Positions 1,363 to 3,713 of a stretch of DNA of 64,000 bases are shown here, piece by piece. Position 1 is the first letter of the stretch, and each line of letters begins with the position of its first letter. The translations under genes and the position numbers were made by a program. Below the pieces are notes generated by a model. The model was not told the DNA's origin and ran no database searches. It was given only the letters and a program-made list of their open reading frames with translations. Origin of the DNA: Ignisphaera cupida (GTDB lineage: Archaea; Thermoproteota; Thermoprotei_A; Sulfolobales; Ignisphaeraceae); contig NZ_JASNVW010000001.1 in NCBI RefSeq assembly GCF_030186535.1, forward strand, positions 248,001-312,000. The letters run 5' to 3'.

Positions 1363-2913
1363 TTAAATTTTATCTAAACCAAGCTTTTCAATATAATAGC
1401 TCAGAATATTGTCATGCTGTTCAGCAATTGTTTTAAACTCTTCTTGCTCAACTATTGTAAATGGTATAACGTCTTTTATCGATGGAAGATTATGTAAAAT
1501 CATTACAAGTCTATAGATGCCTATTCCAACACCTGCTGTTGGAGGCATTCCATACTCCAGAGCTCTTACATAGTCCCTATCCATTGGATGATGCTCTATC
1601 TCACCAAACTTCTCTCTACTCTTTATGCGCAGCTCCTCCTCTTTTTTAAAGAAGTAGTACTGAACTATTGGATTGTTAAGCTCGCTATATCCATTACCTA
1701 TCTCCAAACCATTTACAAAAATTTCGAATCTTTCGGCATATTCAGAGTTTTCTCTTGAGGGTCTTGCAAGAGGGGATACATCTCTTGGAAACATTGTTAT
1801 AAATGTTGGCTGAATTATTTTTGGCTCAGCAACTTTCTCAAATATTTTCTCAATAATTTTTCCTTTTCTTGGATCATCAATTTTTATGTTGAGATTCTTT
1901 GCAATTTCCAGTAGTTCATCATAACTCTTTTTTCTAACCTTTATGCCTCCAAACCTTTCTATTGCATCCTCAATAGTTATTCTAGTCCATGGCGGCTGAA
2001 AATCTAGAACTATTTTTTCATTACCTTTTTGCAACTCTATTTTGTAGTCTCCATACACAGTTTTTATTGCTTGAGAAATCATTTCCTCAACAAGCATCAT
2101 CATGTCCATCCAATCTGAAAACGCTTGGTATATCTCTATTTGGACAAACTCAGGATAATGTTGAGCATCTATATCCTCGTTTCTAAAGCACACAGCAATT
2201 TCATAAACCTTGAAGAAATTGGCTACAACAGCTCTTTTCAAGTATGTTTCTGGTGCTATACTTAAATAAACATCTCTATCGAGAGCATACATTCTAGTTA
2301 CGAATGGTCTTGCCAAAGCACCTCCATAAACAGATTGAAGTTTTGGTGTATGTATCTCTATAAATCCTCTGGAGTCGAGGAAATCCCTAAATGCTTTTTC
2401 TATTCGATACATAGATACCATTGCTTTTCTAACATCATCATTAAGCATCATGTCTAAATATCTCATTCTATACCTTTTCTCAGAATCTGCCAAGCCATGC
2501 CACTTCTCAGGAAACTCTCTCCACGTGATGGCCAATACCCTGAAGTCTTCAACAAGAAGTGAAAGCTCTCCTCTCATAGTCTTTATTGGTCTTCCTCTAA
2601 CACCAATAATATCACCAACATTAAGTATCTCAACAAGTTTCCAAAGAGCTTCGCCAACAACATCAAATCTGAAAACAATTTGAAGTTTATCTGTTCCATC
2701 ATCAAGAACAGCAAAAACTATTTTTCCATGTCTTCTAATTCCCATGATTCTTCCAGCAACCGAAAATCTTTCCCCAGCTTCTTGACCCTTGTCTAAATAG
2801 CTATACCTATTTCTAATGTCACTAAGTGTTGTTGTTACATCATACCTATACTCTGTAAGATAAGGATCTACACCAATTTCGACAAAACGCCAAAACCTGT
2901 GAATAGTTGACAT
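1363..2913 (-). CDS. lysS: Lysyl-tRNA synthetase, class II
   Basis: Charges tRNA-Lys with lysine. The protein has an N-terminal OB-fold anticodon-binding domain (FSVAGRIMGIRRHGKIVFAV, about residues 50-70) and a class II catalytic core, with motif 2 in VCFRNEDIDAQHYPEF and motif 3 in GVGIGIYRLVMIL near the C-terminus. Many archaea use the unrelated class I LysRS; this one is clearly class II, as is usual in Crenarchaeota. The open frame extends to a TTG at 2925, but the ATG at 2913 begins MSTIHRFWRF and is the better start (516 residues). A C/D box RNA gene lies about 65 nt upstream on the same strand and may share its promoter. Confidence 0.93.
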   Translation of the reverse strand: MSTIHRFWRFVEIGVDPYLTEYRYDVTTTLSDIRNRYSYLDKGQEAGERFSVAGRIMGIRRHGKIVFAVLDDGTDKLQIVFRFDVVGEALWKLVEILNVGDIIGVRGRPIKTMRGELSLLVEDFRVLAITWREFPEKWHGLADSEKRYRMRYLDMMLNDDVRKAMVSMYRIEKAFRDFLDSRGFIEIHTPKLQSVYGGALARPFVTRMYALDRDVYLSIAPETYLKRAVVANFFKVYEIAVCFRNEDIDAQHYPEFVQIEIYQAFSDWMDMMMLVEEMISQAIKTVYGDYKIELQKGNEKIVLDFQPPWTRITIEDAIERFGGIKVRKKSYDELLEIAKNLNIKIDDPRKGKIIEKIFEKVAEPKIIQPTFITMFPRDVSPLARPSRENSEYAERFEIFVNGLEIGNGYSELNNPIVQYYFFKKEEELRIKSREKFGEIEHHPMDRDYVRALEYGMPPTAGVGIGIYRLVMILHNLPSIKDVIPFTIVEQEEFKTIAEQHDNILSYYIEKLGLDKI

Positions 2914-2978: not shown

Positions 2979-3033
2979 AAACTCAGCTGGATGCTCCTCA
3001 TCACTACTCAGAGAAGAGCGCTTTCATCACATT
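2979..3033 (-). ncRNA. C/D box sRNA (2'-O-methylation guide) 1
   Basis: Read on the minus strand, this stretch has all four boxes in canonical order. C box GTGATGA (3030-3024), guide AAGCGCTCTTCT (12 nt), D' box CTGA (3011-3008), 3-nt spacer, C' box GTGATGA (3004-2998), guide GGAGCATCCAG (11 nt), D box CTGA (2986-2983). Box sequences and spacing fit the archaeal double-guide consensus, and an A/T-rich end follows. The predicted targets are the complements AGAAGAGCGCTT and CTGGATGCTCC; by the D-plus-five rule the methylated bases would be the G and the A at position 5 of each. I could not place these targets in rRNA or tRNA from memory. It lies antisense in the aKMT promoter region and upstream of lysS. 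Confidence 0.86.
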
Positions 3034-3074: not shown

Positions 3075-3650
3075 ATGTCTACAGTGCCATGGATTCCATC
3101 ACCCAAAACTCCAATAGAGTATTTGAAATATGCTTTAGGTGCAAGCAGTAATGATGTTGTTTTAGATCTTGGATGTGGAGATGGGCGAGTGCTTTTGGAG
3201 TTTGCTAAAGCAGGTGCTAAAACAATTTGCATAGAAATTAACAGAGTTCTATGTAATGTTAGTGAACTTGTGTTTGGATTGCATGGACTAAAAGATAGGC
3301 TTATTGTTATATGCAGTGATTTCTTTAGTGTAGATTTATCTGAATTAAGACCTAGGCCAACAATTGTATATGCATATCTATATCCATCTACTTTAGAACT
3401 GTTATCAGAAAAACTTGAGAAGGAGCTAGATCTCTGCACCATTATAGCAACACTTGATTTTCCTATAAGAAATTGGAGCCCAGTATTTGTGAAAAGTCTT
3501 GTTGACGAAAATGGGCATCACAGAACAATCTGGATTTACATAAATGGTTTTTCAAATCCTAAAGCAAGGCTCATTACAGAAGAAAAGATTAGTTTAGTAG
3601 AGCAAACAAATTACTGTCCCGATACTTGTAAGAGAAAATTGTTTCTATAG
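3075..3650 (+). CDS. SAM-dependent protein-lysine methyltransferase, aKMT-like
   Basis: 191 residues. It resembles the crenarchaeal aKMT family (related to eukaryotic FAM173), broad-specificity lysine methyltransferases that modify many cytosolic and DNA-binding proteins. Visible features are the start VPWIPSPKTPIEYL typical of aKMT, the SAM-binding motif I VLDLGCGDGRVLLEF (residues 29-43), an acidic residue after beta-2 (IEINR) and the C-terminal pattern PIRNWSP...GHHRTIWIYI. The length exceeds the roughly 160 residues of Sulfolobus aKMT by a C-terminal tail of about 30 residues that is Lys/Arg-rich and contains two cysteines. The ATG is preceded by GAGG at 3064-3067. The gene is flanked on both sides by minus-strand C/D box RNAs. 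Substrate assignment is inference. Confidence 0.78.
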   Translation: MSTVPWIPSPKTPIEYLKYALGASSNDVVLDLGCGDGRVLLEFAKAGAKTICIEINRVLCNVSELVFGLHGLKDRLIVICSDFFSVDLSELRPRPTIVYAYLYPSTLELLSEKLEKELDLCTIIATLDFPIRNWSPVFVKSLVDENGHHRTIWIYINGFSNPKARLITEEKISLVEQTNYCPDTCKRKLFL

Positions 3651-3663
3651 GTAAGAAGGAAAA

Positions 3664-3713
3664 TCAGTTTATCGACCCTTCGTCACTTCTCCGACAACGT
3701 CGACCTCATCATC
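3664..3713 (-). ncRNA. C/D box sRNA 2, with degenerate internal boxes
   Basis: On the minus strand: C box ATGATGA (3712-3706), guide GGTCGACGTTGT (12 nt), D' box CGGA (one change from CTGA), 3-nt spacer, C' box GTGACGA (one change from consensus), guide AGGGTCGATAAA (12 nt), D box CTGA (3667-3664), then TTTT. Perfect outer boxes with weaker inner boxes is the normal archaeal pattern. The stretch is more G+C-rich than its surroundings, as expected for a structured RNA in an AT-rich genome. The D guide complements TTTATCGACCCT; its core TATCGAC resembles helix 89 of 23S rRNA as I remember it, which would need checking against this organism. It overlaps the stop region of the small gene 3724-3927. 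Confidence 0.72.

Follow-up and report, generated by a model that had tools for sequence, protein, structure and literature searches.

The RNA gene and its neighbours

The window (the whole 64-kb stretch of DNA that we analysed) carries on its minus strand a short RNA gene between lysS and an aKMT-like methyltransferase gene. lysS lies downstream of the sRNA on the same strand, with 69 nt from box D to the lysS ATG, and the aKMT-like gene lies on the opposite strand, its ATG 44 nt from box C. This is where the initial annotation had placed a C/D box guide RNA. Of its two neighbour labels, lysS is well supported by its NCBIfam score, while the aKMT label is weak, scoring far below the model's cut-off. 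The features of the locus are as follows.

1363..2913, minus strand: lysS, class II lysyl-tRNA synthetase (NCBIfam lysine--tRNA ligase, 531 bits; cut-off 468)
2983..3030, minus strand: C/D box sRNA gene body, box C to box D (exact boxes; homologues upstream of lysS in 7 further Ignisphaera genomes)
2983..2986, minus strand: box D, CTGA, read from the sequence
2987..2997, minus strand: D guide GGAGCATCCAG, 11 nt (homologues' 12-nt guides fit 23S nt 25-36, A29)
2998..3004, minus strand: box C', GTGATGA, read from the sequence
3005..3007, minus strand: spacer GTA, 3 nt, between D' and C', read from the sequence
3008..3011, minus strand: box D', CTGA, read from the sequence
3012..3023, minus strand: D' guide AAGCGCTCTTCT, 12 nt (homologues' guides fit 23S nt 50-61, G54)
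3024..3030, minus strand: box C, GTGATGA, read from the sequence
3075..3650, plus strand: aKMT-like methyltransferase (archaeal protein-lysine methyltransferase model, 82 bits; NCBIfam cut-off 200)
3664..3712, minus strand: second conserved C/D box sRNA, between the aKMT-like gene and a DUF5622 ORF

Read along the minus strand, positions 2983-3030 have the order GTGATGA-AAGCGCTCTTCT-CTGA-GTA-GTGATGA-GGAGCATCCAG-CTGA. The four boxes, C (RUGAUGA), D', C' and D (CUGA), are all exact and stand in the order of the class, and the guides of 12 and 11 nt fall inside the 10-12 nt that the excerpted text of PMC4644070 gives for archaeal C/D guides. Boxes, guide lengths and the 3-nt spacer are thus exactly as first described. 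The extent originally given, 2979-3033, does contain the RNA but adds 3-4 flanking bases on each side of the gene body. As had also been anticipated, the gene is invisible to ORF calling.

To gauge the chance level, we counted matches to the full consensus and found one in the 64-kb window, at 2983-3030, and none in 300 simulated first-order Markov windows; a relaxed pattern occurred at 0.027 per simulated window. A C/D finder allowing up to two box mismatches returned a single further candidate in the window, 3664-3712, and no match in 40 simulated windows. At gathering scores, Rfam called three tRNAs and no C/D sRNA across the whole window. The best Rfam model for the sRNA was RF00095 snoPyro_CD (32.0 bits, E 3.2e-5 in a 221-base search), which aligns end to end and covers 2980-3033. 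The C/D model run that had been proposed as a check therefore yielded a full-length alignment, but at a score under the gathering score of 45. Ten C/D Rfam families matched the sRNA below gathering, with E up to 1 in the 221-base search. A search of a plasmid collection for the sRNA gave no match, and none of the papers searched mentions a box sRNA from Ignisphaera.

Conservation of the RNA within and beyond the genus

Homologues were sought with a 62-nt DNA query against 31 genomes and with a sequence-only model of six homologues against 18 genomes of the family, comprising 11 from the genus (the window's own genome, G000, among them) and 7 others. Strong model matches (E <= 4e-11) were obtained in 8 of the 11 Ignisphaera genomes: G000, G001, G002, G005, G006, G007, G008 and G010. 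Six of these were used to build the model and so match it by design, and G001 and G002 were newly found by it. Conservation of the boxes in related genomes, which the initial annotation had asked for, is thus directly observed. lysS lies downstream of the RNA in all eight carriers, and an aKMT-like gene lies on its other side in seven; no aKMT match was found in the ~1.9 kb fetched upstream of the RNA in G001. In three genomes that have lysS (G003, G004 and G009), a scan of <=1.5 kb upstream of the gene did not find the RNA, and the whole genomes gave no match with E under 0.1.

The guides are conserved alongside the boxes in the genus homologues. The D' guides read AAGCGCTCTTC followed by G or T in six genomes, TAGCGCTCTTCG in G002 and AGGCGCCCTTCA in G001. 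The D guides read AGAGCAATCCAG in three genomes and AGAGCTATTCAG, AGAGCTATTCGA, AAAGTTATCCAT and AAAGCCATCCGC in the others, and the window's D guide, at 11 nt, lacks one base compared with its seven genus relatives.

The closeness of the sRNA to both neighbouring start codons suggests that the element could act in cis, either as an L7Ae-bound kink-turn in the lysS leader or as an antisense or promoter element of the aKMT-like gene. The stretch GTTTTTAACTT after box D, common to G000, G005 and G006, is a further point for this explanation, but the T-run after box D is lost in G007, G008 and G010. The distances also vary widely, from 58 to 529 nt between box D and lysS in the genus genomes and from 36 to 147 nt between box C and the aKMT-like start in the seven genus genomes that have both; the latter spread speaks against a role in the aKMT promoter, the region in which the RNA was originally placed. 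Additionally, G001 carries the RNA without an aKMT match in the stretch fetched, the homologues of G013 and G016 (see below) lie ~2.1 kb upstream of lysS, and an element acting in cis would not account for guides conserved as well as boxes. We regard action in cis as very unlikely, and regulation of aKMT by the sRNA is not supported. Shared transcription of the sRNA and lysS is possible. According to the excerpted text of PMC7994747, a TATA-like motif is found at ~20% of archaeal C/D genes, and most others lie in longer transcripts.

Outside the genus, weak model matches (E 2e-5 to 0.03) were found in five of the seven other family genomes: G013, G014, G015, G016 and G017. In these five outer homologues box C is exact and is followed by a guide (A/G)CG(C/T)GCCCTTCG; the D' and C' boxes are degenerate, and after them come a guide formed by (A/G)GAGCCATC and three more bases and then box D, CTGA. 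Because the D' and C' boxes are degenerate, the first 12 nt that follow box C were treated as the outer D' guide, which leaves its +5 site uncertain. The G013 and G016 homologues lie on the lysS strand; those of G014 and G015 sit on contigs that have no lysS match, and the G017 genome has no lysS match. No homologue was recognised in G011. G012 has a C/D RNA that shares the D' guide type only, with D' guide GAGCGCCCTTCG and a different D guide. This RNA, at G012:C129 ~707-744, has a D' guide containing the complement of 23S GAAGGGCGC and the D guide GAACCACCGTGA.

In total, homologues are present in 12 genomes besides the window's. This count, together with four intact boxes of which none is expected by chance, makes it extremely improbable that the window holds chance boxes or a decayed pseudogene, even though the shortened D guide, a poor fit to the site common to its relatives, is what decay might produce. 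On its exact boxes and its conservation in relatives, 2983-3030 is a genuine, conserved and previously unannotated archaeal C/D box sRNA gene, in agreement with the identity first proposed, and we infer that it is expressed.

An order-wide search matched 12 of 98 genomes at E <= 1e-4, seven of these in the genus. Outside the genus, the matches in G063 and G047, which belong to another family, are C/D RNAs that share the D' guide core of the window's RNA. Their D guides, GGAGCGCCTG in G063 (L220) and GCAACGCCTC in G047 (L221), are unrelated to the window's, their gene neighbourhood is different, and the neighbour proteins gave no match. The match in G011 is an RNA with D' guide GAGCGCTCTGTA, that in G014 is another C/D RNA, and the fifth is in G019.

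Several other C/D RNAs were noted along the way. Four genomes from other genera of the family (G015 L144, G016 L145, G013 L146 and G011 L148) have another C/D RNA with D' guides GCGCTCTG(C/T) and D guides (G/A)GACTACCGGC(A/G). With the G000 tRNAs, the only ones used here, these D' guides form 9 Watson-Crick pairs to the D-arms of tRNA-Tyr, -Arg or -Ala, and the D guide of the L146 RNA of G013 fits tRNA-Arg 41-51. The window's genome itself has another C/D box RNA at G000:C4 ~22988 (L161), GTGATGA-TACGACGGTCTC-CTGA-AAT-GTGATGA-AACTTCTCTTCG-CTGA, and a C/D-like RNA at G010:C93 ~5692 (L157) has the D guide AGAGTTACCCTT.

The second RNA of the locus, at 3664-3712 on the minus strand, reads ATGATGA-GGTCGACGTTGT-CGGA-GAA-GTGACGA-AGGGTCGATAAA-CTGA, with two box mismatches, and lies 11 nt after the DUF5622 stop. 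The aKMT-like gene thus has C/D RNAs on both sides, each on the opposite strand. Aligned genomes have the second RNA at the same place in 9 of the 11 members of the genus, and no copy was seen in the stretches retrieved from G001 and G003. For its D' guide, 23S nt ~2664 ranked first in five of five sets (the G009 set with a wrong first base); for its D guide, 23S nt ~2641 ranked first in four of five, and 16S ranked first in G008. Both candidate sites are present in the window genome's own 23S, 24 nt apart. Scores as high arise in 114 and 325 of 1000 shuffles, so neither site is significant alone.

Candidate targets in 23S rRNA and tRNA-Ala

Because no 16S was found for the genome of the window and its 23S reads N over the 5' part, target scans were run on the rRNA of relatives, and 23S positions are numbered on the 23S of G005. 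Its tRNAs were represented by 42 distinct ARAGORN calls with introns, among which some intron-containing calls may be misassigned. Pairing was judged by the +5 rule and the 9-bp criterion set out for archaeal C/D sRNAs in the excerpted text of PMC4644070, which also describes double guides that act within 100 nt and for which the pairing rule is relaxed.

At the level of the family, complementarity to 23S rRNA is observed directly. The family guides fit two sites near the 23S 5' end that are 25 nt apart, A29 for the D guide and G54 for the D' guide, so that both guides fall within 100 nt of each other on one rRNA. The outer D guides have Watson-Crick runs of 9, 9, 8, 8 and 8 at 23S nt 25-36, with A29 at +5, and the outer D' guides have runs of 10, 7, 10, 10 and 10 at nt 50-61. 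These are the best sites of the outer guides among the G005 23S, the G005 16S and the 42 G000 tRNA calls, and column shuffles reach the scores in 3 of 1000 cases for D and 55 of 1000 for D'.

The genus guides were ranked against G005 or G008 rRNA and the G000 tRNAs. For the D guides, 23S nt 24/25 is the strongest duplex in all seven relatives (six guide sets run), and their summed score at 23S is reached by 17, 5 and 19 of 2000 column shuffles under three choices of position, or by 1.2% of shuffles once tRNAs are included. Taken together, the genus D' guides have their best rRNA site at 23S nt 50, a score equalled within 100 nt of the D site by 112, 30 and 25 of 2000 shuffles. By itself the eight-genome D' score at nt 50 is unremarkable, as 76% of column shuffles reach it in rRNA. 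The D' guide of G001 forms 9 Watson-Crick pairs at nt 50 and has a stronger duplex at nt 1361 (-22.0 vs -20.1). Pairing of the genus relatives at A29 and G54 includes G-U pairs or a mismatch.

The window's own guides fit these sites less well. Against the G005 23S, its D guide has a 6-bp Watson-Crick run at A29; this is its longest 23S run containing +5, and the site is outside its five best duplexes. Its D' guide forms 8 Watson-Crick and 2 G-U pairs at nt 50, with a Watson-Crick run of 4. Neither guide has a Watson-Crick run of 9 containing +5 in the relatives' 16S and 23S, nor does the D guide in the 42 own tRNA calls. The D guide being one base short and the D' guide using G-U pairs, 23S activity may be reduced or shifted in this organism.

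Since the guides of the family pair with the two 23S sites, the sRNA most likely methylates that region. We put at roughly 60% the probability that it is the family's 23S double guide, which probably methylates the A29/G54 region and aids its folding. Transcription would run on the minus strand, towards lysS. By the mechanism described for the class in the literature, L7Ae would bind the C/D and C'/D' kink-turns, and Nop5 and fibrillarin would join the L7Ae-bound sRNA. Each guide would then pair with its target RNA and direct 2'-O-methylation of the target nucleotide that faces the guide's fifth base, counted upstream from D or D', so that the D guide would specify A29 and the D' guide G54, near the 5' end of 23S rRNA. 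Methylation there may help the 23S 5' region to fold. The 5' end of 23S corresponds to the eukaryotic 5.8S.

A different target is suggested by the D' guide of the window, which forms 10 consecutive Watson-Crick pairs with the organism's own tRNA-Ala(GGC), from G19 to U28 in the D-arm, with G22 at +5. The initial annotation had called for a search of the guide complements against rRNA and tRNA; its outcome is split between this D' guide match, which exceeds 9 consecutive pairs and includes +5, and the lack of any such run for either guide in the relatives' 16S and 23S or for the D guide in the tRNA calls. The predicted target strings in full have no perfect match in the relatives' 16S and 23S or in the own tRNA calls. 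Shuffled guides reach a 10-pair run in 8 of 3000 cases in tRNAs alone and in 29 of 3000 when 16S and 23S are added.

Accordingly, the D' guide of Ignisphaera could have been retargeted to G22 of the tRNA-Ala D-arm, with a D guide that is fading or accessory. The 10 consecutive pairs spanning +5 recur with the own tRNA-Ala(GGC) in seven of eight genus genomes, tRNA-Ala is the strongest D' guide duplex in six of seven sets, and the D' guide fits it better than 23S nt 50 in seven of eight genus genomes. tRNA-Ala was found in 15 of the 18 family genomes, at least one isoacceptor of each has GAAGAGCGCT, and some Ala(CGC) or (UGC) genes of G000, G003 and G007 mismatch it. The same D' core also occurs at another locus in G063 and G047, where one extends to 11 bp, as tested on the G000 tRNA-Ala only. 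Methylated G22 (Gm) was detected in M. maripaludis tRNA-Ala(UGC) and is termed unexpected in the excerpted text of PMC7668247; Gm at position 22 is likewise mentioned for a P. furiosus tRNA in the excerpt of PMC12247713. Moreover, tRNA guides use one guide and leave the other without a target, as described in PMC7994747.

Against a tRNA target, the five outer homologues and G001 mismatch tRNA-Ala, with a run of 4, and fit 23S. The summed tRNA-Ala score over eight genomes, 189, is just under the shuffles' 95th percentile of 192.5. As the run of the outer homologues is only 4, the comparison shows that the tRNA-Ala fit belongs to the genus guide and not to the family. Because these five outer homologues fit 23S, the odds are shifted to 23S over tRNA-Ala, and we consider retargeting to tRNA-Ala doubtful as the present function of the RNA.

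The two targets can be joined in a historical scenario, in which an ancestral 23S double guide would have drifted by a few bases in the D' guide of most Ignisphaera to become a 10-bp guide for tRNA-Ala G22; we offer this tentatively. In a lysS tree (FastTree, midpoint root), genomes with the CTC-type guide fall into two genus clades, and the CCC-type belongs to G001 and the outer genomes. Support is low (0.28 to 0.87) at several of the deep nodes, and so a single and a double origin of the CTC guide are both compatible with the tree. If retargeting did occur, it would supply a guide for tRNA-Ala Gm22, for which none is assigned in the excerpted text of PMC7668247. The locus is of interest mainly because its guide may have drifted between a ribosomal and a tRNA target, a small case that yields testable predictions for both.

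Relation to known C/D box sRNAs

One more C/D guide is in itself ordinary because thermophilic archaea carry many: Table 1 of PMC4644070 gives 26 to 128 such guides in six thermophiles. In the same paper, about one third of 489 sRNAs are without an rRNA target. The sRNA that we favour as a 23S double guide resembles archaeal C/D box sRNAs in the order and sequences of its boxes, in its two guides of 10-12 nt and in the two targets of its homologues, which are <100 nt apart in one rRNA. It shows no difference in kind from them, although the window's 23S pairing is weaker than the usual 9-bp rule. Similarly, its boxes and spacer align over the full length of RF00095 snoPyro_CD and RF01139 sR2, but the scores of 32.0 and 26.5 bits lie below the respective gathering scores of 45 and 42. 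Finally, it is like the tRNA-directed C/D sRNAs, exemplified by sR50 of the tRNA-Trp intron and by the Pyrobaculum set of Lui et al. 2018, as cited in PMC7994747, in having one guide with 10 consecutive Watson-Crick pairs to a tRNA. It differs from them in that the candidate site is G22 in the D-arm of tRNA-Ala and the homologues point to 23S.
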